Part shown: in pieces, positions 2,014 to 35,476 of the stretch
Layout of the letters: each line of letters opens with the position of its first letter
How positions within the stretch are numbered: position 1 is the stretch's first letter
From: Chthoniobacter flavus
GTDB taxonomy: Bacteria; Verrucomicrobiota; Verrucomicrobiia; Chthoniobacterales; Chthoniobacteraceae
Direction of reading: 5' to 3'
Length of the DNA stretch: 44,909 nucleotides
Assembly: GCA_945861435.1 (NCBI GenBank)
Contig: CAMAUX010000045.1
Coordinates: 1 to 44,909, forward strand
The notes under the pieces: generated by a model
Told to the model about the DNA's origin: nothing
Databases searched by the model: none
Seen by the model: the letters and a program-made list of their open reading frames with translations, nothing else
Made by a program: the position numbers and the translations under genes

Positions 2014-2988
2014 TCAATCGCTTTCTGCCTCGCCTGTCCCCCGGTACCGCCGGTACGCCCGCACAATCGATTGCACCAACTCATGCCGGATCACGTCCCG
2101 CTCCCCAAACTGGCAGAACGCGATCCCCTCCACCCCGCGCAACGCCTGTAGCGCCTCCACCAACCCCGAACGCCGGTTGCTCGGCAGGTCGATCTGCGTC
2201 TGATCGCCCGTGATCACACACTTGGACTCCGCTCCAAGACGCGTCAAAAACATGAACATCTGCTCCGTCGTCGTATTCTGCGCCTCATCCAGCACCACAA
2301 ATGCGTGATTGAGCGTACGGCCCCGCATGTACGCCAGTGGCGCAATCTCAATCACCCCGCGCTCCATCAACCGCTGCATCTCCTCCGCATCCAGCATGTC
2401 ATGCAGCGCATCGTACAGCGGCCGCAAATACGGCATGATCTTCTCCTTCAAATCCCCGGGCAGAAACCCCAGTGCCTCCCCCGCCTCCACCGCCGGCCGG
2501 GTCAGGATGATCCGCGTCACCTCCTCCCGCTTCAACGCTGAGATCGCCATGGCCATCGCCAGATAGGTCTTCCCGGTCCCCGCAGGCCCAAGACCGAACA
2601 CCATGTCGTGGCTCCCAATCGCCTCCAAATACCGCCGCTGCCCCTCCGTCTTCGGCACAATGGGAGGACGCTTCGGGGAACACTGCACACGCCCCGCCAC
2701 CAACCCGTCCAACCCGCTCCCGACCCCCTCCCGCACAGAACGCAGCGCGTAAAGAAACTCGTGCTTTCGCACCGTCACCCCACTCTGACGCGCCCTCTCC
2801 AACTGCTCGAAAAGCCTCCGAGTGAGTTCCACTCCCTCCCCCCCACCCTCCACACGCAATCCCCCATCGCGCGCCGTCGTCTTCACCCCCAAGGCCTGTT
2901 CCAACGCCTTCAACAAACTCAAGTCGCCCGCGTACAACGACGCCAGCACACGCGCATTCTCAAACTGCAAAGTCTTCGTCTGGTTCAA
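2014..2988 (-). CDS. phoH: PhoH family P-loop ATPase
   Basis: PhoH-like protein of 324 residues, a usual length for the family. The Walker A motif is GPAGTGKT and the Walker B-like motif is FVVLDEAQN, followed by GDQTQIDLP, all typical of PhoH ATPases. The family is linked to RNA metabolism and often sits beside ybeY; its exact role is not settled. The frame is open to a GTG at 3054, but that would add a glycine-rich stretch not seen in the family. I prefer TTG at 2988: a GGGGAGG lies nine bases upstream, and the protein then begins MNQTKTLQFENARVL, matching the usual PhoH N-terminus. It is followed after 42 bp by the pgpH-like gene, so the two are probably one operon. Confidence 0.92.
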   Translation of the reverse strand: MNQTKTLQFENARVLASLYAGDLSLLKALEQALGVKTTARDGGLRVEGGGEGVELTRRLFEQLERARQSGVTVRKHEFLYALRSVREGVGSGLDGLVAGRVQCSPKRPPIVPKTEGQRRYLEAIGSHDMVFGLGPAGTGKTYLAMAMAISALKREEVTRIILTRPAVEAGEALGFLPGDLKEKIMPYLRPLYDALHDMLDAEEMQRLMERGVIEIAPLAYMRGRTLNHAFVVLDEAQNTTTEQMFMFLTRLGAESKCVITGDQTQIDLPSNRRSGLVEALQALRGVEGIAFCQFGERDVIRHELVQSIVRAYRRYRGTGEAESD

Positions 2989-3073
2989 TCCCGATGCCCT
3001 CCCCACCAGACTCCGCTGACTCCCCAAGCTCCCACCACCCACCCACCACCGCACAGTTCAAAATCCCGCATCC

Positions 3074-19368: not shown

Positions 19369-21240
19369 ATGGACATCACTTCCGCAAAAATATCCGTTCT
19401 GATCAGCATGCTGGCCGTCCTTTGTTCCCCGCCTGCGCAAGCGGTGCCGCCACCCAGTTCGTTTGGTGTCTGGGATCGGGGCGACAAGTTCCACCAGAGT
19501 GAGTATCTCTTTCTGAAAGGGTTGGCATTCACCCAATCCTGGGCAGAGGTGGAAAAGAAACCGGGCGTTTTTGATTGGACCACCCTGGATCAGGCCTTGA
19601 AGAAGGCGGCCGAAAGCCGCCAGTTCCTCTACCTTTCGCTGAACGTCGGTCCCGATGCGCCAAAGTGGATCTATGAAAATGGCGTCCCCGCCGTGAAGGC
19701 CGACAGCCAAATTCACGACAGCTGGCCTCAGTATCCTTTCTACGCATCCCCGCAATACAAGGCGTTCTGCCAGCGATTGATCACGGAGTTCGGGAACCAC
19801 ATCCGTGGCTGCTCGAAGGAGATGCAAGAGCACATTGCTTTCATTCAGGTGAAAACGGGCTGCACGGGCGATGAATGCGCCTACAAGGGCAATGTCATCG
19901 ACAAACAGTACGACCTGCCAATGACATCCGATGCGTGGCGGGAGTTCCGGTTGTGGACGTTCGATGTGTATGTGAAGACCTTCCAATCACCTGCCGACCA
20001 CCCCCGGATCGCGTTGATGTTCAACAACGTGTCGCCCGATGCTGATGCAGCCGAGAAGAAGGATTTTGCGAAGGAGTGGGAATGGGTGATGGCGAACGCC
20101 AAAGGCGGCCTCGGAATTAAGATCGCCGGCAGCGGGCGCGGCCACCATTTGAGTGGCGAGCGCAGCAAGATCCAAACGTGGCAGCATCGGCTCATCGCCG
20201 CGCAAGGCACACCGCTGTTTGCCCGCTCGGAGATGGATCAGACTTGGACGCGTGCATGGTATCAGCTGAACGTGCCTCTCAGCTTCTATTGGGGCGCGCT
20301 CACCGGCCTGCAAGGCGGGCAAAGCATCTGGGATATCAGCGCGAGCGCGATGGAGGCCTGCAAGCAGCAGGGCTTCGATTACTCCTTCCACTTCTTCAAC
20401 CGTTACGCAGGGCAGATCCAACCACAGACAGCCACCGATGCCTTCTGCGCGCTGCACAAGGGATTGGATGCCGCGGACACCAAAGCGTATCCAGAGGACA
20501 AGTTCGGCGAGGCCAGCAAGCACAATGCTCAGCGCATGCTGAAGATCTGCGCCACTTATGCAAAGTATGGCGCTGCGGTGGATGACCAGAACGCCCTGCT
20601 GCTCAGCCAGGTGCGCCAGCGCGACACGCAGACAGGATTCAACGACGTGGGCTGGGACATCTGGCCCGACAACTACGGACGCTTCCTCTACCAGATCGAC
20701 CCCGATGAAACATCAATTGCGCTCTGGCGCGTGGGCGGCCCGATCACCAAGACCTCGTCCATCTACTCCCGCTTTGCGCGCGGCTTTGAGCACGCGTCAG
20801 GCAAGAACGCGATGCATTTCAAACTGCACGACGGCTTCGTTGAAGGCACCGGGCCGAAGGTGATGACAATCACGATCCTCTGGTATGATGGAACCGCGGG
20901 CTCCACCTGGAAACTCGACTACGATGCAGGCATGTCAGCCATGAAAACCGCGCTGAACATCACCGGCAAAGGCGACCACCTCTGGCATCATGAGCGCGTC
21001 ATCATCGAGGATGCCGTGCTGCGTCAGGGCGGAATCAAGGGCGCGGACTTGGCCCTCGTGAACACCGATGCCAAAGACGACATCTTCAGCCTGATCGAAG
21101 TCCATCGCGGCAGATTGGAAACACCTCCGGTCCTGCCTCCAACTGATTTCAAAGTATCGAACGAACCACCCAAGCCACCCAAGGCGGACAAAACCGAAAA
21201 AGTGAAGCAGCGAAACAAAAAGCCAGAAGGCGCCCGCTGA
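19369..21240 (+). CDS. secreted glycoside hydrolase-like protein (TIM-barrel type)
   Basis: Protein of 623 residues with a signal peptide (about 1-25, ending PPAQA). The segment FTQSWAEVEKKPGVFDWTTL near residue 55 resembles the start of barrel domains of GH42, GH5 or GH35 glycosidases, in which a W..(E)..pG.FDW..LD pattern is frequent; next comes YLSLNVGPDAPKW. FIQVKTGCTGDE is a possible site of the acid/base Glu, and SEMDQTW a possible second one, both unproven. The C-terminus after about residue 590 is a Pro/Lys-rich tail. I cannot assign a family with confidence. The divergent XylR-type regulator and the neighbouring SGNH esterase relic suggest breakdown of a plant or algal polysaccharide. 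Confidence 0.62.
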   Translation: MDITSAKISVLISMLAVLCSPPAQAVPPPSSFGVWDRGDKFHQSEYLFLKGLAFTQSWAEVEKKPGVFDWTTLDQALKKAAESRQFLYLSLNVGPDAPKWIYENGVPAVKADSQIHDSWPQYPFYASPQYKAFCQRLITEFGNHIRGCSKEMQEHIAFIQVKTGCTGDECAYKGNVIDKQYDLPMTSDAWREFRLWTFDVYVKTFQSPADHPRIALMFNNVSPDADAAEKKDFAKEWEWVMANAKGGLGIKIAGSGRGHHLSGERSKIQTWQHRLIAAQGTPLFARSEMDQTWTRAWYQLNVPLSFYWGALTGLQGGQSIWDISASAMEACKQQGFDYSFHFFNRYAGQIQPQTATDAFCALHKGLDAADTKAYPEDKFGEASKHNAQRMLKICATYAKYGAAVDDQNALLLSQVRQRDTQTGFNDVGWDIWPDNYGRFLYQIDPDETSIALWRVGGPITKTSSIYSRFARGFEHASGKNAMHFKLHDGFVEGTGPKVMTITILWYDGTAGSTWKLDYDAGMSAMKTALNITGKGDHLWHHERVIIEDAVLRQGGIKGADLALVNTDAKDDIFSLIEVHRGRLETPPVLPPTDFKVSNEPPKPPKADKTEKVKQRNKKPEGAR

Positions 21241-22915: not shown

Positions 22916-24553
22916 ATGACCTGGCAACAATCCTACGACCCCCTCGGCAGCACCGGATCATCGGCCCTGCTCGCCTCCCTCCCCATCCTCCTTCTCCTCG
23001 CCCTGCTCGGCGGCTTCCACTGGCAGGCCCACCGCGCCGCAGCTCTCTCCCTCGCCTCCGCCCTCACCCTTGCCATCGCCGGATTCCACATGCCTGCTCC
23101 CATGGCCCTCTGCGCCGCGGGCTACGGCGCCCTCTTCGGCCTCTTCCCCATCGGATGGATCGTCCTCAACGCCCTCTTCCTCTACCAACTCTCCGTGGAA
23201 ACCGGTGAGTTCGAATCCCTCAAAAACCAAATCGCACGCCTCTCCGACGACCGCCGCATCCAAACCCTCCTCATCGCCTTCTGCTTCGGCGCCTTCATCG
23301 AAGGCTGCGCCGGCTTCGGAGCTCCCGTCGCCATCTGTGGCGCCATGCTCCTCGGCCTCGGTTTCAAACCCATGGAAGCCGCCGTCCTCGCGCTCATTGG
23401 CAACACCGCACCGGTCGCCTTCGGCTCCGTCGGCATCCCTCTCACCACGCTGAGCTCCGTCACCGGCCTCGACCTCCAAGCCCTCTCTGCCATGACGGGC
23501 CGCCAGCTCCCTGTTTTCTCCCTCCTCATCCCCTTCTGGCTCATCGCCGTCCAAGCGGGCTGGCGCGCCATGCTCCAAGTCTGGCCCGCCTGCCTCACGT
23601 GCGGCGCCGCATTCGCACTCACCCAATGCGCCATGAGCAACCTGCACGGACCATGGCTCGTCGACACCGCAAGCGCGCTCGTCGCCATGGCCGCCCTCGT
23701 CATCCTCCTCCGCCTCTGGCGCCCATCCCCCTCTCACACCGCCCCTGCCATCACCCCCAACCCAAACCACCGCCCCCCCACGCCCTTGCGCGCATGGACC
23801 CCGTGGATCCTCCTCACCGCCTTCGTCGCCCTCTGGAGCCTCCCCGCATGGAAGGCCACCCTCAACTCCCTCGCATCCCCAAAATTCCCCATCCCCTCCC
23901 TCCACCTCGCCGTATTCAAAATGCCCCCGGTGTCTCCCGCACCCGAACCTGAAAAGGCCGAGTTCCTCCTCAACTGGCTCTCCGCCACGGGCACCGCTCT
24001 CCTGCTCGCGGGAATCTGTGCCGGCCTCCTCCTCGGGCTTCGCCCAGCAGCCCTCGCACGCATCTACGCACACACCCTGTGGCGCGTCCGCATTTCCCTG
24101 CTCACCATCTCCCTCATGCTCGCCCTGGGCTTCACCACCAAATACTCAGGCACCGACACCGCCATCGGCCTCGCCTTCGCCCAGACAGGCACATGGTTCC
24201 CCTTCTTTTCCCCGATTCTGGGCTGGCTCGGAGTCGCCCTCACCGGAAGCGACACCTCCTCCAACGTCCTCTTCGGCAACCTCCAAAAAACCACCGCCGA
24301 ACAACTTGGCATCTCCCCCATCCTCACCGCCGCCGCCAACACCTCCGGCGGCGTCATGGGCAAGATGATCGACGCCCAAAGCATCGTGGTCGCAAGCATC
24401 GCCACCGGTTCACACGGCGACCCCCCCACCGCAGGCGCCATCCTCCGAAGAGTCTTCTGGCACAGCTTCGCCCTCGCCCTCCTCATGGGAATCCTTGTCT
24501 GGCTCCAAGCCACCGTGTTCCCCTGGATCATTCCTACCGTCCACACGCCTTAG
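22916..24553 (+). CDS. lctP: L-lactate permease (LctP/LldP family)
   Basis: Membrane protein of 545 residues with about twelve to fourteen hydrophobic segments. The family signature is clear in AFCFGAFIEGCAGFGAPVAI, ALIGNTAPVAFGSVGIPLTTL, GWLGVALTGSDTSSNVLFGNLQ, and ANTSGGVMGKMIDAQSI. These transporters import L- or D-lactate and glycolate with protons. The gene is alone on the plus strand; no lactate dehydrogenase genes (lutABC, lldD) lie next to it. Starts at ATG 22916 after tttctccaca, again with no Shine-Dalgarno. A GC-rich hairpin follows the stop. Confidence 0.95.
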   Translation: MTWQQSYDPLGSTGSSALLASLPILLLLALLGGFHWQAHRAAALSLASALTLAIAGFHMPAPMALCAAGYGALFGLFPIGWIVLNALFLYQLSVETGEFESLKNQIARLSDDRRIQTLLIAFCFGAFIEGCAGFGAPVAICGAMLLGLGFKPMEAAVLALIGNTAPVAFGSVGIPLTTLSSVTGLDLQALSAMTGRQLPVFSLLIPFWLIAVQAGWRAMLQVWPACLTCGAAFALTQCAMSNLHGPWLVDTASALVAMAALVILLRLWRPSPSHTAPAITPNPNHRPPTPLRAWTPWILLTAFVALWSLPAWKATLNSLASPKFPIPSLHLAVFKMPPVSPAPEPEKAEFLLNWLSATGTALLLAGICAGLLLGLRPAALARIYAHTLWRVRISLLTISLMLALGFTTKYSGTDTAIGLAFAQTGTWFPFFSPILGWLGVALTGSDTSSNVLFGNLQKTTAEQLGISPILTAAANTSGGVMGKMIDAQSIVVASIATGSHGDPPTAGAILRRVFWHSFALALLMGILVWLQATVFPWIIPTVHTP

Positions 24554-25112
24554 CCCGGCCGCCGTTCCCAAGAACGGCCGTATCAGACTGCATCCCACAG
24601 GCTTGCCGGACACCAACGGCGGCCCCCCTCGCGCAAGTCGCCCCCCACCCAGCAGCGATTTTATTTCGCGCGGATACCGCCCTCAACCAGCACGGGCGCG
24701 CAGTCATTCACAGCCGCCATCCTTCTGCACCGAAAGCACCCTCGGCATGCGGGACCGGGGCAACTCCAGAGCACCCACAAAACATTCGCCAACCCCGCCG
24801 ACCGCCAAAGGTTGACTGCCTGCAGCCGACAACTGCACCGCTCACCCTCCGGGGCCCGTACCCACTCGACATCCGGAAGAGACGCAGGGGACGAACCCGA
24901 CTGCCAAGCATCCCTACATCTTGATCAAGTCCGCAGGATGACCGACCTCTCTCTTGCCTCAGGAATGGAATGCCTTTCGAGACTCCGGACCCCCTCAGAC
25001 CACCGCCATCCGTATCTACCGGCGGCTTGTTGAACGCCGTGGTGAAGTTCCAAACAGCCCAAAACACGTGAATGGACACCCCGGACATGAGCCCTCCGAC
25101 GGCTACCGACGT
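24554..25112. other. 559-bp gene-free stretch between lctP and the FtsX-type permease gene
   Basis: Two genes converge on this stretch. Apart from a hairpin at its left end I find no supported feature. Open frames occur on both strands but show no domain, signal or codon pattern typical of the neighbours. A T-loop-like ttcgaga at 24977-24983 does not have the flanking stem of a tRNA. A decayed gene or a small RNA remains possible. Confidence 0.5.
24561..24578 (+). terminator. hairpin after the lactate permease gene
   Basis: gccgttc and gaacggc form a perfect 7-bp stem with loop ccaa, 8 bases after the stop codon. It is a good candidate for the end of the lctP transcript, although no T-run follows. 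Confidence 0.45.
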
Positions 25113-27677
25113 TCAGCCTTCCTTCAAGGCTTGAGCGACCGAGCCTTGGCAAGCCAGCCGCGCAGGCTGCCATGCGGCGAGAGCAGCCGCACAGACGATC
25201 CACACGGGCGTGGCACTCATGGCAACCCAAGGAATTCTGAGCGGAATACTCCATCCAAAAAAAGCCGGATTCACCACCCCCGTGAGCACCACCGCTAGAA
25301 CCAACCCGGCACAAAGACCGAGCAACGACGCCGACGCCCCCACCATCGCTGCCTCCCACACGAAAAACCCCTGCACCTGCGAAGGGGAAGCTCCGAGCGC
25401 CCGCAGCATTGCAATCTCCCTCACACGTTCAGCCACCAGCGTGCTAACCGCGAGGTAAACCCCCACCAGGGCCACCCCAACCGCCACCACCCGCAACACC
25501 GCAGTCACGGCAAAGGTCTGGTCAAACACTGCAAAGATCCGGGCACGCAAAGCCCGGTTGGAATACACCGCGAGTTCTCCACCACGGCTGAAGGCTCCGG
25601 TGAACCGCTCGGCAAGCCCCGCACCATCAGTGCCCGGAAGCAGATACACAGCAATCGATTGCACCCCAGTCTCCCCCCAGTTCTTTTCAAAAAGCCCGCG
25701 CCCCATCAGCACCACGCCGCTGTCGCGGGTGTAATCCGAATACACCCCGCCCACTTCCACCTGCAGGGCCCCGGACGAAGACGGCAGTTCCAGACGATCC
25801 CCAACCCGCTTGTGAAAATGCCGGGCGAAACTCTCGCTGACAGCCACCGCATCCCCGGCAAACACCCGCTGCATCACGCTCTCCGCATCGCCGGACAGGA
25901 ACTGCATGTTGTTCCGATAAGTACCGCCGACCACGGCCAGCACGGCCCGTCCGCCCTCGAAGCGCAGCACGGACTCGGAAAAAGTGTCCACTCCGCGCAC
26001 CTCTTCCTGCAGGCGCAACCACTCGATCGCCTCGCGTTGCACATGCGCGCCCATCCCCACCACCTCGTTGGAAGCGGGTGCGATGAACAGGTCCGCCACG
26101 ATCCCGCGCTCCACCCAGTTATTCACCCCCAGCCGAAACGAGAAGATCATCACGGTCAGGGCGCTCATCATTGCCACCGCCACCCCCAGCGAACCTGCCG
26201 TGATTGCGTTGCGATGGATCTTCCGCACGAGGTTCTGCGCGGCAAGACTTGGGGCGAGTCGGCCAGCCGCAAGCACACGCGCCACGCCACCCACCGCCAG
26301 TGTCACAACAGGTGCAAGACGCGCAAACCCAACGAGCACGCCAAACGCCGCTCCAAACCCGAGCCATGCCGGCCCGCTCCGCAGCGCAACCCAGGAACAA
26401 CCGACCGCCAGCAGCGCGCCCACCGCAGCCTCCCATGGCCATTTCCGCGCACGCGCCTCCTGCTCCCCGGCATAGGCAGCAAGGCTCAGCGCCCCCACCG
26501 GATCTACCCGGACTGCCTCAGCCGCAGGAATCCATGCACCCGCGAGCACCGCAGCAAAACCGGCCAGAACGGCAAGCACCAAGCTGACCCCATCCACCTC
26601 CACACGATCGATGCTCAGGAGGACGTACAGTGAGGAAATTGTACGCCCGACCCCGCTCACAAGGCCTCGCGCGAGCAACACACCGGCGGCGCTTCCCAGA
26701 ACAAGCCCCACGGCCCCCACACAAAGCGCCTCCCCAAGAAACAGTCCCCGGACCAACGCTCCTCCCGCCCCCATGGCGCGCAGCACCCCGATCTCCACAC
26801 GCCTGCGTGTCACGCTTGCCGATACCGTCCCGTAGATCAAAAATACTCCCACGAGAAGCGACACCATGCTCAACGCGCTCAGGTTGAGCTGAAAGGCCCC
26901 GAGCATCTTCTGCATCTGCGCACTACGCTGACGAGGCGCGCCCACCGTCGCATCCGGTGGCGCAAGCTCCTGCAGACGCGCTGCAAGCTGCGCACTTCCT
27001 CCCCCGTCCGCGACCAAAAGCTGGATCGAAGTCAACCAACCCGCCGTCGCGAACAATTCCTGAGCCCAGCCGATGTCCATCACCGCGAGGTGCCGCTGTG
27101 CGGCGACGGGCGCATCACTCGCATCCACCACGGCCAGAACCCGCAGCGTCCCCCTCCCCTCGGGCCCAAGCACCGCAATCGAGTCCCCGGGGCGCACTCC
27201 CAGCCTTTGCGCCATCTCGGCATCCAACGCCACGCCCCCAGGCGTCTGCAACCAGCGCTCCACATCCAAAGCTCCCCCCTCCCCCCGGAGTTCCATCACC
27301 CGGAAGGGCGCGTTGGAAAACACATCCACCCCCACCACCCGCAGGTATTCGCCGGGATAATCGGGGAGCGTCACCACCCCTTCCACCACAGCGGTAGCCG
27401 CGCGCACACCAGCCTCCCGGGCCACCTCAGCCCAAAGCGTCTCCGGCAACTTGCCGCGCACCTCCATGTCCGCCTTGCCGGCAATCAACTCCACACCCGC
27501 CGCGAAAGACCGGTTCGCACTCCGGTTGGCGATTTGGATCGCGAGAAACACCGCCACCCCAAGAGCGACGCCCAGCACCTGAAGCAGCGTCAGCAACGGG
27601 CTTTGCACCCAGCGACGCAGCATCTGCCATCGGAAAAGCGTCCACAAACTCGCCGACATCCCACCCCCGGGAATCAT
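25113..27677 (-). CDS. FtsX-like ABC transporter permease, two-repeat (YbbP-like)
   Basis: Protein of 854 residues with the layout of long FtsX-type permeases: one N-terminal membrane helix (about 27-48), a large extracytoplasmic domain, a first FtsX block of membrane helices (about 265-395, with RRRVEIGVLRAMGAG), central helices, a second extracytoplasmic domain and a C-terminal FtsX block (about 725-850, with VREIAMLRALGASPSQVQGF). Such proteins use a LolD-like ATPase to move lipoproteins, lipids or other envelope molecules, or to transmit force. No ATPase gene is adjacent. Its ATG overlaps the stop of glnD as ATGA (27674-27677), so the two are translationally coupled, an odd pairing. Substrate unknown. 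Confidence 0.9.
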   Translation of the reverse strand: MIPGGGMSASLWTLFRWQMLRRWVQSPLLTLLQVLGVALGVAVFLAIQIANRSANRSFAAGVELIAGKADMEVRGKLPETLWAEVAREAGVRAATAVVEGVVTLPDYPGEYLRVVGVDVFSNAPFRVMELRGEGGALDVERWLQTPGGVALDAEMAQRLGVRPGDSIAVLGPEGRGTLRVLAVVDASDAPVAAQRHLAVMDIGWAQELFATAGWLTSIQLLVADGGGSAQLAARLQELAPPDATVGAPRQRSAQMQKMLGAFQLNLSALSMVSLLVGVFLIYGTVSASVTRRRVEIGVLRAMGAGGALVRGLFLGEALCVGAVGLVLGSAAGVLLARGLVSGVGRTISSLYVLLSIDRVEVDGVSLVLAVLAGFAAVLAGAWIPAAEAVRVDPVGALSLAAYAGEQEARARKWPWEAAVGALLAVGCSWVALRSGPAWLGFGAAFGVLVGFARLAPVVTLAVGGVARVLAAGRLAPSLAAQNLVRKIHRNAITAGSLGVAVAMMSALTVMIFSFRLGVNNWVERGIVADLFIAPASNEVVGMGAHVQREAIEWLRLQEEVRGVDTFSESVLRFEGGRAVLAVVGGTYRNNMQFLSGDAESVMQRVFAGDAVAVSESFARHFHKRVGDRLELPSSSGALQVEVGGVYSDYTRDSGVVLMGRGLFEKNWGETGVQSIAVYLLPGTDGAGLAERFTGAFSRGGELAVYSNRALRARIFAVFDQTFAVTAVLRVVAVGVALVGVYLAVSTLVAERVREIAMLRALGASPSQVQGFFVWEAAMVGASASLLGLCAGLVLAVVLTGVVNPAFFGWSIPLRIPWVAMSATPVWIVCAAALAAWQPARLACQGSVAQALKEG

Positions 27678-30493
27678 GTCCGCAGCACCGAGAGTTCCGA
27701 GGCCTCCCGCAAAACCTGCTGCAACGCCGAAACCCCGCGCGCGTCCCGGATTTTCTGCCCCTCAGAGTCGGTCACGTAAAAGCTGTCCGTGGCCGCGCCC
27801 TTGTCGGTGGCGATGCGCGAAAGGGCGATCTGCACACCCTCCCGACCCATGGCACGCAACAGGTGATAGAGCAGCCCCATACGGTCGGGGGTGAGGATGT
27901 CGACCAGCGTGTAAATCGGGTGCGCATCGTTGTCGATGGTGATCCGGGTCGAAAAATCCAGCTCCTGCTCCAGCATCGGATGCCGCCGGCTCACCACACC
28001 GGCGAGTTCCGGGGTGAAGTCATAATCCATCTCACGCAGCGACTGCGCCAGCAAGCGCTCCACCTTCTGCACCGCGCGCTCGTCAGTCACCGCCTGCAGC
28101 CCGGTGTCGCACACCCGGAAGACGTCGAACACCAAGCCATCCCCACGGGTGAACGCATCAGCGCCTAGGATGTTCAGCTGGGCGCAGGCGAAGGAGCCCG
28201 CGATCCTCGCCAGCAACTGCGTGCGATCCCATCCACAGATCCAAACCTCGCTATGCCCTTGGGCCGGACGCGCAATCCACTGCACCACGGGGAGCAGCGG
28301 GTCGCCATCTTCCCTGAGCCGCTTCTCAAGAAAGTGGTGCAGATGCTGGATGTGGGCCGTCACCTCCCCCGCCGGATAGCTCTGCAGATAACGCTCCGGC
28401 ATGTGCTCAAAGTGCGCCTCCACCTCTTCGGCCCACTCCGCAGGCAACTCCTCGCACACCCTTCGGCGGAGCCCCTCCTTCTCGATGGTCCGCTGCCGGC
28501 GAAATCCCTCGCCATCGGCAAGGAACAGCCCCGTGCTGCGATACAGCTGCCAGATCAGCGACTCCTTCCAGTCGCTCCAGCGCTCATCTCCGGTGCCCTG
28601 CCCGTCCGCGAGGGAGAGCAGCATGAGCGCGTCCAGATTGGCCACATCCCGCACCAATCCCGCAAACTCGGTGATCGTCGCTTGGTCATCCAGATTGCGC
28701 CGCTGCGCCGTGCTGGACATGAGGATGTGATTGTCCACAAGCAGCAGCAGCGAACGCCGCTGGGCTGAGGATAGCTGCAAACGCCGGGCCACCTTCTGCG
28801 CAAAGACCGCGCTCGCCTCCGCGTGGGCCGGCGCATTGGAAGCCTTTCCCGTGTCGTGCAAAAGCAGCGCAAGGTAAAGCACCAGCGGATCCTCCAAACT
28901 CCCGAACAACGCTTTATACTCCGCCAGCCGTGGGTCCTCCGTATCCAGCAGCGCATCCAGCTTTTCAATACACACGAGCGTGTGCTCGTCGGCCGTGTAC
29001 CGGTGAAAGAACTCATGCTGCACAAGGCAGGTCAGCTGCCCGAACTCAGGGATGTAGCGGCCCAGGAAGTCCACTTGGTGCATCGCCCTCAGGATGCGCC
29101 CCACCTCCCCCTTGCGCGAACAGATCGCCGTGAACACCTCCCGGTTCGCACGCGAGTACTGGAATGTCTTGTCCACCAAGTGCAGGCGCCGCCTCACCAA
29201 CTGCGCCAGATCCGCGCTCATCTGCAGCTCGCGCTGCTGCAGATACTGAAAAAGCCGCATCAGACGCTCGGGAACTTTGGCGAAGATGTCCCGCGACTCC
29301 GCGTACATGAGGCCGTTGACTGCAAAGAAGCCATCAAAGCGCTCAGGCCCCCTGCCGAGACGCAGGAAGGAAAGCAACCGCCTCTTGGGCGCAAGCTTCG
29401 GCGTGGTCACACTCAACCGCTCGGAGATCAACTCGGTGATGTTGAAGATATTGCGCGCGTGCTGGTAGTAGTCGCGCATGAACGCCTCCCCCCGCCGCAG
29501 CACGTTCTTCTGCGGATAACGCAACCGGTCCGCGAGCTGCACCTGCTGGTTCAGCACAATGACGTCCGTGGAACGCTTGTTGAGATAGTGCAGTTCTGTA
29601 CGCACCCTCAGAAGGAAGTCATAAGCACGATCCAGCAGACGCCGCTCCGCCTCGTTGATGAGCTTCTCCTCCACCAACCCGGCCGTCGAACGCACCCGCT
29701 TCTTGAAAAAGCTGATCCAAAGCAGGTTCTGGTAATCCCGCAGGCTGCCACACCCGTTTTTGATGTTGGGCTCCTGCATGTACACGCTTCCGCCGAACTT
29801 GGCGTGCCGCTCGGATTGGTTCGTCACGCGGTCGGCGATGTACTCCTCCACATGGCCCTCCACACACTGCTCCAAGAAGCGCGCGCGGAATCTTTCAAAA
29901 AGCGCCTCGTCCCCGGCCACCAAACGCGCCTCCAGAAGGGAGGTTTTGGAAAGCATGTCGCTGTTGGCCTCCTTCACGGCCTCGGGAATCGAACGCGTCG
30001 AGTGCCCCACCTTGAACCCGATGTCCCACAGCATGTAGAGGATCTGCTGCACCACCTCGTTGACCCGCTCGTCCAGAGTACGCGTGCCGCCCCCGTGCAG
30101 GAACATGGTGTCCACATCGCTGAACGGGTTGAGTTCCCCGCGACCAAAACCCCCGTTGGCCACCACGGCGAGTTCCACCGGCTTGCCTCCCACTCCCACG
30201 GCAACTGCCCCACCCTGCCACAGCCCGTTCAGGGCTGCCGTCAGCAGGTGCCGCAGCACGATGTCCACCAAGCTCGCCCGCGCCGCGCAGATTTCCCGCC
30301 CACCGGCACCACTGTGATGCTTGAGCCGGATCCGGTGGTTCTCGATCTTCAGGAACTTCTTGTAGAGGGCAAGCAACTCCGCCGAGTTCAGCCTGCCTTG
30401 CGACAGCAACTGCTGCTCGGCATGCGCCAGAACTTTTTCACTATGGCAAAGCACGAGATGGAAATCAGAAACCGAACACCTCCCTAAACCCAA
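27674..30493 (-). CDS. glnD: [Protein-PII] uridylyltransferase/uridylyl-removing enzyme
   Basis: Protein of 939 residues in the GlnD order: nucleotidyltransferase domain with GGFGRGELNPFSDVD (about 114-128), helical domain, HD domain with LLLHDTGKAS, and two C-terminal ACT domains, the last including DRMGLLYHLLRAMG. GlnD adds UMP to PII when glutamine is low and removes it when glutamine is high, with glutamine sensed by the ACT domains. Its substrate PII is encoded at 40343-40681, with the target Tyr51 present. The longest frame starts with TTG 30493; no clearly better start was found, so the first residues are uncertain. Followed directly by the coupled FtsX-type permease. Confidence 0.95.
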   Translation of the reverse strand: MGLGRCSVSDFHLVLCHSEKVLAHAEQQLLSQGRLNSAELLALYKKFLKIENHRIRLKHHSGAGGREICAARASLVDIVLRHLLTAALNGLWQGGAVAVGVGGKPVELAVVANGGFGRGELNPFSDVDTMFLHGGGTRTLDERVNEVVQQILYMLWDIGFKVGHSTRSIPEAVKEANSDMLSKTSLLEARLVAGDEALFERFRARFLEQCVEGHVEEYIADRVTNQSERHAKFGGSVYMQEPNIKNGCGSLRDYQNLLWISFFKKRVRSTAGLVEEKLINEAERRLLDRAYDFLLRVRTELHYLNKRSTDVIVLNQQVQLADRLRYPQKNVLRRGEAFMRDYYQHARNIFNITELISERLSVTTPKLAPKRRLLSFLRLGRGPERFDGFFAVNGLMYAESRDIFAKVPERLMRLFQYLQQRELQMSADLAQLVRRRLHLVDKTFQYSRANREVFTAICSRKGEVGRILRAMHQVDFLGRYIPEFGQLTCLVQHEFFHRYTADEHTLVCIEKLDALLDTEDPRLAEYKALFGSLEDPLVLYLALLLHDTGKASNAPAHAEASAVFAQKVARRLQLSSAQRRSLLLLVDNHILMSSTAQRRNLDDQATITEFAGLVRDVANLDALMLLSLADGQGTGDERWSDWKESLIWQLYRSTGLFLADGEGFRRQRTIEKEGLRRRVCEELPAEWAEEVEAHFEHMPERYLQSYPAGEVTAHIQHLHHFLEKRLREDGDPLLPVVQWIARPAQGHSEVWICGWDRTQLLARIAGSFACAQLNILGADAFTRGDGLVFDVFRVCDTGLQAVTDERAVQKVERLLAQSLREMDYDFTPELAGVVSRRHPMLEQELDFSTRITIDNDAHPIYTLVDILTPDRMGLLYHLLRAMGREGVQIALSRIATDKGAATDSFYVTDSEGQKIRDARGVSALQQVLREASELSVLRT

Positions 30494-30554: not shown

Positions 30555-32105
30555 TTACACCAACCGGAAAAGATCACCTGCTGCCGACTGAGCGCACTCC
30601 ACGCGCACCGCGGGGTCGTTGGAGGCCATGTGGGTTAGCACATGGTACACCGCCTCGGGATCCGCCTGCACACGAGCCGCGATCTGCCCCGCATCCGCGG
30701 GCTCACGGTGCTGCTCCAACTCGCGCCGCACCTTGAGCAGCAGGTCGATGACCGCCCCCGCCGCCTTCTTGCCAGCCTCCACCCCGGGCTGGTGATAGGC
30801 GTTGATATTGACCAAAGACGCATAGAAACCCACCGCCCTCTCGTACAAGGCGATGAGCGATCCCACCGTGCGAGCGTCCACGTGCGGCATGCTCACCGTC
30901 ACCGAATCGCGACCGCCATCGAAGAGCGCCGTGCGCGTGCCGCGCAGGAATCCCTGCAGATAGTCGGCCGTGGTCACTCCCGGATCCACTTCCATGGAAG
31001 CCTGTGAGCGCCCCTTGCGCACCTCGATGAAGGTCACGAAGAAATTGGCGACCCCGTCGCGCAACTGCTGCACATACGCATGCTGGTCCGTGGACCCCTT
31101 GTTGCCGTAGACCGCGATGCCTTGGTTGACCGTCTTCCCATCCAGATCGAGTTCCTTGCCGAGGGACTCCATCACCAGCTGCTGGAGATACTTCGAAAAG
31201 AGCACCAACCGATCCTTGTAAGGCAGCACCACCATGTCCTTCGCCCCGCGCCCGTTGCCCGCGAAAAACCACATCATGGCCAGCAGCATCGCCGGATTGG
31301 ATCGCGTATCCTCCACGCGCGTCCACTCATCCATCGCCGCAGCCCCCTCGAGGAAAGCCTTCATGTCGAGCCCCTGAAGTTGCAGTGGGACCAATCCCAC
31401 CGCGCTCATCACCGACGTGCGTCCACCCACCCAGTCCCACATCGGAAAGCGCTTCAACCAGCCGTTGGAATCCGCATAACGGTCCAACTCGCTGCCCGGC
31501 CCGGTTACCGCCACCGCATGCTGCGCGAAGTTGAGCCCCAGCTTCTCATAGCGCGCCTTCGCCTCCAGCATCCCATTGCGCGTCTCCTTCGTTCCACCCG
31601 ACTTCGAAATGACCACCGTCAGCGTACGCCCGAGCCGGTCCTGCAAACCGTCCAGCACACGATCGATGCCCTCCGGATCCGTGTTGTCAAAGAAGTGAAG
31701 ACTCATCGCGTCCGCGCCCGTCCCGAGCGCATCGGACACAAACTGCGGCCCGAGGGCCGACCCGCCGATGCCGATCAAAAGCACATCGCTGAATGCGCCC
31801 TCGCTGTGAACTTTCGCGGCAAACTGCACGATGTCCGCAAACGTCCCCTCAATCTCCGAACGCAACTGCGCAGTGGGCGCAAGCTGCGGACTGCGCAGCC
31901 AGTAATGCCCCACCATCCGCTTCTCGTCCGGATTCACCACCGCCCCGGACTCGAGCGCCTTCATGTCCGAAAAAGCACGCTGCGCTGCAGGCTCCATGGA
32001 ACTCAGGAACTCGGGACCGAAGCGCATCCGGCTGATGTCGAGTGAGAAGCCAGTGGCGGCGTGGCGGAGGAGAAACTGCTGAAAGCGGTCCCAATGCGAG
32101 TTCAT
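30555..32105 (-). CDS. pgi: glucose-6-phosphate isomerase
   Basis: Protein of 516 residues from ATG 32105. Family segments include [41 protein letters not shown] and [17 protein letters not shown]; the last two contain active-site residues of the isomerase that interconverts glucose 6-phosphate and fructose 6-phosphate in glycolysis and gluconeogenesis. The frame is open to 32225, but that would leave only five bases to the divergent efflux gene; ATGs at 32126, 32111 and 32105 are possible, and none has a clear Shine-Dalgarno. It lies 61 bp upstream of glnD on the same strand, and a shared transcript is possible. Confidence 0.95.
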
Positions 32106-32230
32106 GTGCATGGATGGAACCGCCATCGGGGGGAGGTGTCGAGGCTCGATTGGGAAACCCCGAAGCGGGCCCGCCGCGCAGACGCATGAATTGCCTTCCT
32201 CCCCCGTGTGCGCAATAGTCCCCAACCCCC

Positions 32231-33325
32231 ATGAAGAAACCTCTCGGCATCCTTCTCTCCCTCGCCCTCGGTGCCGGCGGCATCTTTTTCTATCAGCGAT
32301 CCTCGGCGGTCCCCTCAGACAAGCGTTCCCCCTCCCCGCAGAACGCGCTGGTGGCCAAGGCCGAGAAACGCGACCTCGATATCATCGTCGAAGTCAGCGG
32401 CGATGTCGCACCCTTCTTCCAACTCGACGTCAAACCCGAGGTCGGCGGAAAGCTCAAGGCCGTCCACATCGAGCCGGGCGCCATCGTCAAGGAAGGTGCC
32501 CCCCTCGTGGAGATCGACGACACCGACCTGCTCACCGAACGCGAAACCGCCCTCACCGAAATCGAGGGAGCCAAACTCCAGGTCGAACGCGACCAGCGCA
32601 ACTTCGTCCGCGGCAAAGAACTCTTCGACTCCAAGCTCATCAGCCGCGAAGCCTACGACAACCTCGCCTCCACCGTCGCCCTCTCTGAAAACGCGCTGAC
32701 CAAGTCCTCGCGCCGCGCCCAAATCGTGGAGGACAGGCTGCGCAAAACCAAGGTGCTCGCGCCCTGCGACGGCACGGTGCTCAGCGTCCCGGTCACCGAA
32801 GGGCAGGTGGTCATCGGAGCCGCCAGCGTCAACAGCGGAACCACGCTGATGACCATCGCCAACCTTTCCAAGCTCCTCGTGGAAACTCACATCAACCAGA
32901 TCGATGTCGCGCGCATCCAGCCCAACCAGAAGGTCAAGCTGCACGCCGAAAGCCTCCGACAGACGGAGATGGAAGCCACCATCTCCTTCATCGCCCCCAT
33001 CGCCACGGTCAAAAACACCATCAAGGGATTCCAAGTCCAGGCCGTCATCAACGCGCCCGCCGCCCAGTTGCGCCCAGGCATGACCGTCCAACTCAAAATC
33101 CCCATCGACCACGCCCAAGACGCCCTCACAGTGCCCATCTCCGGAATCTTCAAGGGCGACGGAAACTCGAAGGTCGTCTACGTGCGCAACGGCGAGGGTT
33201 CCGAAAAGCGCGCAGTCAAGGTGGGCCTCATCAGCTTCGAACACGCCCAGATCCTCAACGGCCTCAAGGAGGGCGAGGAAATCCTCCTGGTGGAACCCGG
33301 CCGCGACCGGGCCAAGAAGTCCTAG
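32231..33325 (+). CDS. MacA/HlyD-type periplasmic adaptor subunit
   Basis: Protein of 364 residues with an N-terminal membrane anchor or signal (about 4-21). The barrel-sandwich (lipoyl-like) halves flank a coiled-coil hairpin: [23 protein letters not shown] first, helices at about 95-165 ([20 protein letters not shown]), then [21 protein letters not shown], followed by a beta-barrel and membrane-proximal domain. These adaptors connect an inner-membrane MacB-like transporter with an outer-membrane channel. The gene starts a four-gene plus-strand set with the ATPase, permease and a lipoprotein. No TolC-like gene is present. The exported substrate cannot be read. Confidence 0.92.
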
Positions 33326-33386
33326 GCACCGCACCTCGCGGCTGCCGCAGCCGTCACTGCCTCTGGCTTAACTGCCCTTCCTGTCC

Positions 33387-34127
33387 ATGCCCATCATCGA
33401 GCTCACAGACGTCTTCAAGCGTTACCGCGTGGGCGAGCAGGAGATTGTGGCCCTCAACGGCATCAACCTTTCCATCGACCAGGGCGAGTACGCTGCCATC
33501 ATCGGCCCAAGCGGCAGCGGCAAATCCACCCTCATGCACCTGCTCGGCTGTCTGGACACCCCCACCTCCGGACGCGTTCTCATCCAAGGCAACGACGTGA
33601 GCACCGCCGACGCCAACCGACTCTCCGAGATGCGCAACAGCCACATCGGTTTCGTCTTCCAGTCCTTCAATCTCCTCCCAAAACTGAGCGTCCTGCAGAA
33701 CGTCGAACTGCCCATGATCTACGCCGGCGTCTCCAGCCGCGAACGCCGCGAACGCGCCCTGGCCTCCATCGAACGCGTCGGCCTCGCCGACCGAGCCGGC
33801 AACACCCCCCTCCAACTCAGCGGCGGCCAGATGCAGCGCGTCGCCATCGCACGCGCACTCGTCAACAGCCCTCGCATCATCTTCGCCGACGAACCCACCG
33901 GCAACCTCGACTCCAAGACCGGCGCCGCCATCCTCGCCCTCTTCCGCGAACTCAGCCAGCAGGGCAGCACCATCGTGCTCGTCACCCACGACGACAAAAT
34001 CGCCGCCCAAACCCCGCGCCGCATCGAGATCAAGGACGGACGCATCGTTCAGGACTTCTTCAACCCCGACGCCGATTTGCCGGGAACCGCCCGTCCGCTC
34101 ACTCCCCAACCCACACCGACCTCATGA
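33387..34127 (+). CDS. MacB/LolD-type ABC transporter ATPase
   Basis: Protein of 246 residues, a normal length. Walker A is GPSGSGKST, the Q-loop lies in GFVFQSFNLL, the signature motif is LSGGQMQR, Walker B is RIIFADEPTGNLD and the H-loop is VLVTHDD. This set is typical of the MacB/LolD/FtsE subfamily. The C-terminal twenty residues (DADLPGTARPLTPQ) are an extra proline-rich tail. Its stop overlaps the permease start by ATGA (34124-34127), so ATPase and permease are made in step. In Escherichia coli MacB these two parts are fused; here they are separate, as in Bacillus YknYZ. Confidence 0.95.
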   Translation: MPIIELTDVFKRYRVGEQEIVALNGINLSIDQGEYAAIIGPSGSGKSTLMHLLGCLDTPTSGRVLIQGNDVSTADANRLSEMRNSHIGFVFQSFNLLPKLSVLQNVELPMIYAGVSSRERRERALASIERVGLADRAGNTPLQLSGGQMQRVAIARALVNSPRIIFADEPTGNLDSKTGAAILALFRELSQQGSTIVLVTHDDKIAAQTPRRIEIKDGRIVQDFFNPDADLPGTARPLTPQPTPTS

Positions 34128-35476
34128 ACCTCTGGTTCGGATTCCTCGTGGGACTCAAGGAGATCTGGTCCCACAAATTTCGCAGCTTCCTGACAATGCT
34201 CGGCATCATCCTTGGAGTGGCCTCCCTCCTGAGCATGTTCTCGCTCACCGCAGGCATGGCCAATGGCATGCGCCAATACATGCAGCAGGTCGGCGGCATC
34301 GAACGCGTGGGCGTCATCCCCCAAGAACCCCCGACGGATCAGGAGGGCTTCGCAGAAATCTCGCCCGGCAGGACCATCGCAGACGCCGAAGCCATCGCAC
34401 GCTCCGCCACCTTGGTGTCCGCCGTCACACCGATCTCCGAACTCGCAGCCGCCACGGTGTCCTTCGGCAGCCAGTACTTCCGCACCCCGGCCTACGGCGT
34501 CTGGCCGGACTACGTGCCCATCAACAGCCACGAGATTAGCCGGGGCCGTTCGCTCACATGGCTGGATGTGGAGAGCGCCCAGAACGTCTGCGTCATCGGC
34601 CAGCGCGTCACCCAACGTCTCTGGCCGGACCGGCCCCGCTTCAACCCCGTGGGCGAATCCATCCTCATCAACGGCCGCCCCTTCAAGGTCGTGGGTGAGT
34701 TCACCTTCTACGAGACGGAGTGGGACCGGCGGCAACGGGAACTCAGCACCAAGTCCGCAGCACCCGCCCGCACCAAACGTCCCACGAAGGGAAGCAGCAG
34801 TTCCGGCCGGGGCTACAGCGCCTTCGAACGCAAGAACTCCACGGTCATCCTCCCCATCACCGCGATGTTCTATAACTTCAAGATGGCAAACGTGGTTAAA
34901 AACGAGGATCAGGGACCGCAGCTCAAACTCGACGCCCTCACCATCCAAGTCGCTGACATCGCCCGGTTCGACCAAGCGCTCGAGCAAGTCCGCACCATCC
35001 TCGAGGCCACCCACCGCGGCATCGAGGACTTCACCTTCGACACCCGTCAGGAATGGTTCGACTCCATCGAACAAGGCATTCGCAACACCCGTTTGAGCGG
35101 CGGCATCATCGCGGGCATCTCCCTGCTCGTCGGCGGCATCGGCATCACCAACATCATGCTCGCCAGCATCACCGAACGCATCCGCGAGATCGGCGTACGC
35201 AGGGCCGTCGGCGCCAAGGGGCGCGACATCTTCATCCAGATCCTTGTCGAAAGCGCCGTCATCGGTCTCATCGGCGGCTTCCTTGGCCTCATCGCCAGCT
35301 TCGGCATCATGCGCATCCTCGTGCTCATCTCGCCGACGGAAAACGCGCCGGTGCTCCAGTGGGAGAACGTGATTCTGAGCTTCAGCTTCGCCGTAATCAT
35401 CGGCCTGCTCAGCGGCATCTACCCTGCGCTCAAGGCCAGCAAGCTCGACCCCATCGAGGCTCTGCGCTACGGATGA
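34124..35476 (+). CDS. MacB-type ABC transporter permease
   Basis: Protein of 450 residues with the MacB permease layout: membrane helix 1 at about 17-41 after FRSFLTMLGIILGV, a large periplasmic domain (about 45-310), then the FtsX-type block of three helices. The block begins at about 320 with GGIIAGISLLVGGIGITNIML, continues with ERIREIGVRRAVGAKGRDIF, and ends with FSFAVIIGLLSGIYPALKASKLDPIEALRYG. It works with the ATPase and the MacA-type adaptor just upstream, using ATP to drive movement in the periplasm rather than transport through the membrane. Its TGA overlaps the start of the lipoprotein gene as ATGA (35473-35476). A Ser/Lys-rich insert (APARTKRPTKGSSSSGRG) lies in the periplasmic domain. 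Confidence 0.94.
   Translation: MNLWFGFLVGLKEIWSHKFRSFLTMLGIILGVASLLSMFSLTAGMANGMRQYMQQVGGIERVGVIPQEPPTDQEGFAEISPGRTIADAEAIARSATLVSAVTPISELAAATVSFGSQYFRTPAYGVWPDYVPINSHEISRGRSLTWLDVESAQNVCVIGQRVTQRLWPDRPRFNPVGESILINGRPFKVVGEFTFYETEWDRRQRELSTKSAAPARTKRPTKGSSSSGRGYSAFERKNSTVILPITAMFYNFKMANVVKNEDQGPQLKLDALTIQVADIARFDQALEQVRTILEATHRGIEDFTFDTRQEWFDSIEQGIRNTRLSGGIIAGISLLVGGIGITNIMLASITERIREIGVRRAVGAKGRDIFIQILVESAVIGLIGGFLGLIASFGIMRILVLISPTENAPVLQWENVILSFSFAVIIGLLSGIYPALKASKLDPIEALRYG

Follow-up and report, generated by a model that had tools for sequence, protein, structure and literature searches.

The window, by which we mean the whole 44,909-nt stretch of Chthoniobacter flavus DNA that was analysed (contig CAMAUX010000045.1 of assembly GCA_945861435.1), carries a glnD gene followed on the same strand by the gene for a large ABC transporter permease (Table 1). 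The open reading frame list gives 939 residues for the first product and 854 for the second, and the 939-residue protein is GlnD by its score against TIGR01693 (619 bits, cut-off 519). At the junction, which reads GGACATGATT, the permease ATG (27677-27675) overlaps the glnD TGA (27676-27674) by 4 nt, bearing out what an earlier note on this DNA, made from the letters alone, had described. The length of 854 residues given there holds for the first ATG. However, a second in-frame ATG lies at 27659-27657, 14 nt past the glnD stop and directly preceded by GGGGGTGGG (27668-27660), and the first methionine of several relatives aligns with it. Given the Shine-Dalgarno-like stretch and the position of the relatives' methionine, the start codon is uncertain, and the second ATG may be the real start of an 848-residue permease that begins just past the glnD stop.

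Table 1. Features of the glnD-permease locus and its neighbours (window coordinates).
Feature	Position	Strand	Remarks
glnD, PII uridylyltransferase	27674-30493	-	directly upstream of permease
Two-FtsX-domain type VII ABC permease, YbbP-like architecture	25113-27677	-	854 aa (first ATG) or 848 aa (second ATG)
ATGA start-stop overlap, permease/glnD	27674-27677	-	from the junction sequence
G-rich Shine-Dalgarno-like stretch and second in-frame ATG, possible alternative permease start	27657-27668	-	from the sequence and relatives' first Met
pgi (phosphoglucose isomerase)	30555-32225	-	upstream of glnD, same strand, 61 nt away
MacAB-type ABC ATPase	33387-34127	+	own permease 34124-35476, adaptor 32231-33325

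Upstream, pgi could possibly form the start of the same transcription unit as glnD and the permease; in G001, G002, G016, G039 and G042, too, it precedes glnD at a distance of up to about 2.5 kb. The only match to ABC-ATPase queries on the permease's contig is the MacAB-type ATPase of Table 1, so that no ATPase adjoins the permease, as the earlier note had stated. Because this ATPase is part of a MacA-ATPase-permease set of its own, it is unlikely to be the partner sought, and we rejected it as such; it also falls outside the partner-ATPase clade described below. The set (32231-35476) diverges from pgi-glnD-permease. A tblastn search of 24301-25400, 3' of the permease, for a remnant crtC gave no meaningful match (best E among the matches listed, 0.019).

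The permease matches PF02687 in two stretches (3.2e-29) and PF12704, MacB_PCD (7e-11), and thus has the FtsX C-terminal and MacB-like periplasmic domains of type VII (MacB/LolCDE superfamily) permeases. Its AlphaFold2 model (pLDDT 80.6, pTM 0.74) has the overall type VII fold with coupling helices, and the best PDB matches of the model are two structures of Escherichia coli YbbP, 9ge7 (Z 23, 745 residues, rmsd 8.1, 15% identity) and then 9ge6 (Z 23, 734 residues, rmsd 6.7, 14% identity). Foldseek matched the model to YbbP at 3e-24, and after YbbP the matches are LolC/E, MacB and BceAB. On our reading of the model, putative coupling helices lie at residues 293-301 and 752-760; both are conserved, and R291, R300, G303, E750, R751 and G762 are invariant in 36 of 36 alignment rows. 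The protein scores far below the cut-offs of three known families, namely YbbP (NF041854, 20.8 against 999 bits), LolC/LolE (TIGR02212, 99.9 against 362 bits) and the duplicated ADOP permeases (TIGR03434, 78.9 against 622 bits).

Counting that of the window, 13 of 40 genomes in the family carry a close orthologue (at least 47% identity), and across families the permease reading frames are full-length, with 36-54% identity. Gene order was surveyed at 76 loci, each with at least 700 nt upstream: the window and 75 of the best 80 of 320 permease loci, a set that overlaps with our G-numbered genomes and in which some titles name other orders. A same-strand glnD lies upstream at 38 of these 76 loci, within 400 nt at 36 and about 3 kb off at two, and is absent upstream at the other 38. 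The coupling, whose conservation the earlier note had proposed to check, is real and is conserved within the order. An ATG or GTG overlapping the glnD stop by 4 nt is on offer as a predicted start in 27 of the 36 adjacent pairs. The permease directly follows glnD in G000-G003, G016 and G039, and an upstream glnD is also found in genomes of families f4, f6, f7, f8, f10 and f12. In the named relative Chthoniobacter flavus Ellin428 (L364) the genes run glnD-permease-crtC. At the loci examined in family f11 and genus g7, the permease and a CrtC/AttH-type lipocalin (CrtC) were present and the stretch examined held no glnD. An ammonium transporter gene, cut by the contig end, lies upstream of the permease in G021 (L045:10763-11584) and is the only nitrogen-related neighbour recognised besides glnD. 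In G061 the permease is preceded, at a distance of about 70 nt, by an LptF/LptG permease gene (PF03739; L216:1261-2379), and in G063 (L233), from the same f8 genus, by a homologue of that gene with 86% identity; L216 and L233 are the same records as L388 and L392. Those titles and abstract openings of open-licence PubMed Central papers that were screened contained neither a glnD-coupled permease nor a dispersed triad of the kind described below.

The genes of an ABC transporter are normally found side by side, and a permease that stands by itself is readily taken for an orphan, as this one was in the earlier note. Outside the Chthoniobacterales, where 33 genomes matched and 24 loci were examined with their flanks (nine genomes being left out), the genes for an ATPase, the permease and CrtC follow one another in that order at all 24 loci (L446-L469). 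The permease of nine of these (L446-L454) is 32-39% identical to that of the window, and that of the other 15 (L455-L469) is more diverged, with 26-35% identity in aligned pieces and mostly 26-30%. Inside the order, the three genes are adjacent in G202, with an orthologous permease (38%), and at L419 and L433 the end of an ATPase gene is directly upstream of the permease and CrtC is downstream. A diverged permease paralogue (27-32% identity) stands between ATPase and CrtC in genus g2 where the contig shows the flanks. Taken together, the operons outside the order, G202, L419 and L433 indicate that the permease is one member of a triad, which has come apart in most of the genomes examined in the order; in its own genome the members lie on three contigs instead of in the single operon of G202 and the 24 outside loci. 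Thus, the permease is probably no orphan but one part of a three-gene envelope transporter that is dispersed in the Chthoniobacterales. The arrangement that the earlier note would have counted against its reading, an ATPase gene beside the permease in most relatives with glnD elsewhere, is what we found outside the order and not inside it.

Where, then, is the ATPase? Within the own genome, the six ATPases that most resemble the MacB-type protein of the window (at least 158 bits) are on contigs C45, C1, C7, C2, C31 and C62. Those on C45, C1, C31 and C62 adjoin or are fused to a permease, and the search for an unpaired LolD-like ATPase that the earlier note had suggested thus yielded two, on C7 and C2. 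The likely partner, at C7:89819-90475, is flanked on one side by the gene for an RluA-like pseudouridine synthase and on the other by a cNMP-binding gene with lpxC-fabZ and lpxA; orthologues with 58-71% identity are present in G001, G002, G003, G016, G019, G021 and G039. The cyclic-nucleotide-binding protein encoded between ATPase and lpxC (L119:5243-5839) is retained in several ATPase-less genomes. The second unpaired ATPase (C2:126651-127349; L120:5652-6350) has no adjacent permease, lies beside a gene that by eye we take to be ilvE, and is probably LolD itself. A LolC/E-like permease of the same genome (C46:36563-37987; L121:6564-7988), next to what is presumably alaS (by eye), has no adjoining ATPase. 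As these LolC/E-like and LolD-like genes are unlinked, pairing in trans is not unique to the glnD-linked permease.

The setting beside lpxC was followed in 60 further genomes (35 permease-positive, 23 permease-negative and two with a paralogous triad). The ATPase is upstream of lpxC in 16 of the 35 permease-positive genomes, and in G044 it adjoins the RluA-like gene at a distance of about 5 kb from lpxC; among the 18 permease-positive genomes that lack it at lpxC, 13 have it elsewhere and five belong to g7. It was found at lpxC in 0 of the 23 permease-negative and 0 of the two paralogous-triad genomes. In seven permease-negative genomes (G022, G023, G029, G050, G082, G193 and G210) the RluA-like gene and lpxC are both in view with no ATPase between them, and in the triad-bearing G053, where both can also be seen, the ATPase is absent there. 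In nine f11 genomes it adjoins the same RluA-like gene and is followed by genes that by eye we take to be accB or accB-accC.

In an ATPase tree of 134 sequences, rooted at the midpoint, the 46 partner-type ATPases (41 of them with an RluA-like neighbour) form one clade (support 0.94) apart from the MacB and LolD types. Seven triad ATPases join this clade first (0.92), followed by 36 (0.79) and 39 (0.56), the last of these values being weak support for the basal node that holds the triad and partner ATPases together. Outside the clade fall a MacB-type sequence from L283, 45 others, and the ATPases of L434, L435 and L437, loci with Verrucomicrobiales titles; these three had been candidates for triad ATPases upstream of the permease and were rejected, as they group far from the clade, and that of L434 looks PotA/FbpC-like by eye.

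To follow ATPase and permease together, a profile was made from 19 partner-type sequences and first run on 25 permease-positive and 15 permease-negative genomes. Eighteen genomes, all permease-positive, scored 331-363 bits, with a gap between 331 and 285. The match at 285 bits, in G041, is beside the RluA-like gene, and MacB-type matches reached 278 bits or less; the limit of E 1e-84, chosen after this run, admits G041 and leaves out the MacB type. On this basis 96 of 213 genomes are ATPase-positive, 92 of them among the 105 permease genomes: both genes occur in 92, the permease only in 13, the ATPase only in four and neither in 104 (Fisher's p = 3e-40, a value that ignores phylogeny). The permease count derives from 123 matched genomes, 18 of which were dropped as carrying diverged paralogues or triads (G004-G015, G020, G053 and G189-G192), and a contig-end fragment in G139 was kept. 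The 13 genomes with permease only are six of g7, G203, G052, G091, G073, G134, G198 and G205; the assemblies of G203 and G052 are also without lpxC, and G091 has an ATPase copy split between frames, which counts as negative here and as positive in the tree count that follows. The ATPase was seen without the permease in G019, G060, G062 and G200, which are 70-87% complete. As a rough correction for kinship we used a tree of lpxC fragments from 68 genomes, on which 13 of the 14 changes in the ATPase coincide, in branch as well as direction, with changes in the permease, of which there are 18 (hypergeometric 3e-13, approximate), leaving five permease changes and one ATPase change without a counterpart.

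The lipocalin follows the same pattern. Among 80 genomes that were chosen by us, as were those of the lpxC look-up and the first profile run, CrtC is present in 41 of 41 permease-positive and one of 39 permease-negative genomes, the sole exception being G200, which also carries the ATPase. Within the family of C. flavus it occurs in 13/13 genomes with the permease orthologue, 13/13 with the paralogous type and 0/14 with neither. The own-genome lipocalin (C15:14710-15960) has domains PF07143 and PF17186, and the lipocalin expected of an AttEFGH/CrtC system is thus found in the same genomes as the permease. The six g7 genomes (G024-G027, G031 and G032) have permease and CrtC and no ATPase of the partner clade, and another ATPase may have taken over in them. 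A search for a g7-specific partner took in 20 stretches, 18 of which held candidates (from four g7 genomes); none fell in the partner clade, and these were rejected.

We consider it likely, with a probability of roughly 0.78, that the permease serves as the membrane subunit in a three-part type VII ABC system of AttEFGH/CrtC-lipocalin type, with its genes dispersed in the Chthoniobacterales. What the sequences show is gene content, conserved order, co-inheritance, the operons outside the order and the similarity to the YbbP fold; co-inheritance is a correlation, and a physical complex, a substrate class and a direction of transport are what we infer. In such a system, the LolD-like ATPase, supplied in trans from its locus by the RluA-like gene and lpxC, would bind as two copies to the coupling helices of the fused permease. 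Driven by ATP, the two periplasmic domains of the permease would move and extract a lipid-like or otherwise hydrophobic molecule from the inner membrane, which would be passed to the secreted two-domain CrtC/AttH lipocalin. Its overlap with glnD would allow the permease to be co-translated from the glnD message. The ATPase lies in the lipid A gene cluster in many species, which points to envelope lipids, and such a role is in keeping with this location near lpxC and with the LptF/LptG gene that precedes the permease in the f8 genus.

The proposed extraction from the inner membrane and transfer to a lipocalin draws on the likeness to YbbAP-TesA and on the lipid role proposed for NE1406. In YbbAP-TesA, two ATPases are combined with one permease and one periplasmic partner, and the coupling helices are placed between TM2-3 and TM8-9 (PMC12646458). 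Like its E. coli counterpart (9ge6/9ge7), the permease is a single chain that carries a pair of periplasmic domains and a pair of coupling helices and is proposed to pair with a periplasmic protein; however, identity is 14-17%, the genes here are not adjacent, and the proposed partner is a lipocalin rather than a thioesterase. NE1406, a CrtC/AttH-fold lipocalin, is proposed to act in lipid transport and has a LolD-like ATPase in its genome context (PMC2954199). The likeness to AttEFGH/CrtC systems extends to the relatives outside the order, with ATPase, permease and lipocalin in a row, whereas in this genome the triad is spread over three loci (over two in other genera) and the permease is one fused chain with glnD as its upstream neighbour. 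The term 'attEFGH' occurs in PMC4338557 and PMC13209277. With LolCDE the system shares FtsX and MacB_PCD domains, a LolD-like ATPase and half-permease folds that align, but it has a fused chain, a lipocalin instead of LolA, and a separate LolC/E-like gene (on C46) in the genome.

Alternatively, the permease might use a shared ATPase, for example the LolD on C2, and the lpxC-linked ATPase might serve another role. Genus g7 keeps the permease without a partner-type ATPase, and three of its genomes hold a close C2-type ATPase (66-68%); moreover, the LolC/E-like gene without an adjoining ATPase makes trans pairing likely in this genome anyway. Nevertheless, we find a shared ATPase improbable, because the partner-type ATPase has been lost together with the permease and groups with the ATPases of the triads, and because the three genes are adjacent in G202. 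The absence of an ATPase at the locus could also mark the permease as a relic or a free-riding gene with no ATPase at all, but this is scarcely credible given the full-length frames, the coupling helices conserved across families, and the co-inheritance with ATPase and lipocalin.

A role in nitrogen metabolism, in which the system would move a nitrogen compound or sense nitrogen status and would be coupled to glnD for that reason, accords with the conserved gene order with its 4-nt overlap and with the ammonium transporter upstream in G021. However, the genes inherited along with the permease encode a lipocalin and a LolD-like ATPase, the latter found next to lpxC in many genomes; at the loci examined in f11 and g7 no glnD is seen, and the neighbours read there by eye were varied; and in one f8 genus the permease follows an LptF/LptG gene. 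A scan of the window for sigma-54-type sites returned 49 matches where 53 were expected, and a link through a sigma-54-type promoter was rejected for want of any excess. The nitrogen-related export raised in the earlier note is therefore unsupported, in view of the 24/24 triads outside the order, the ATPase beside lpxC-fabZ-lpxA and the lack of sigma-54 excess, and we regard a nitrogen role as very unlikely.

If the permease is indeed the membrane subunit of a dispersed AttEFGH/CrtC-type system, much of the order appears to maintain a three-part transporter whose genes lie in separate places, and the partners can be traced through their co-inheritance. This provides a list of partners for CrtC/AttH-lipocalin ABC systems that can be put to the test, and raises the question of why the overlap with glnD is retained in so many cases. 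The glnD link is outside the reach of the model of a dispersed triad. It is possible that the permease simply borrows the glnD promoter. A more speculative suggestion, which we think rather unlikely, is that the overlap ties envelope lipid handling to nitrogen status, in that translation of glnD would set the amount of a lipid-extracting ABC transporter whose other subunits come from the lpxC region and a third locus.

Elsewhere in the window, a 623-residue open reading frame (19369-21240) has an apparent signal peptide by eye and no Pfam match at E 0.001, and a gene for a 7TM-HD phosphohydrolase-type protein (319-1971) adjoins a PhoH-like gene (2014-3054).
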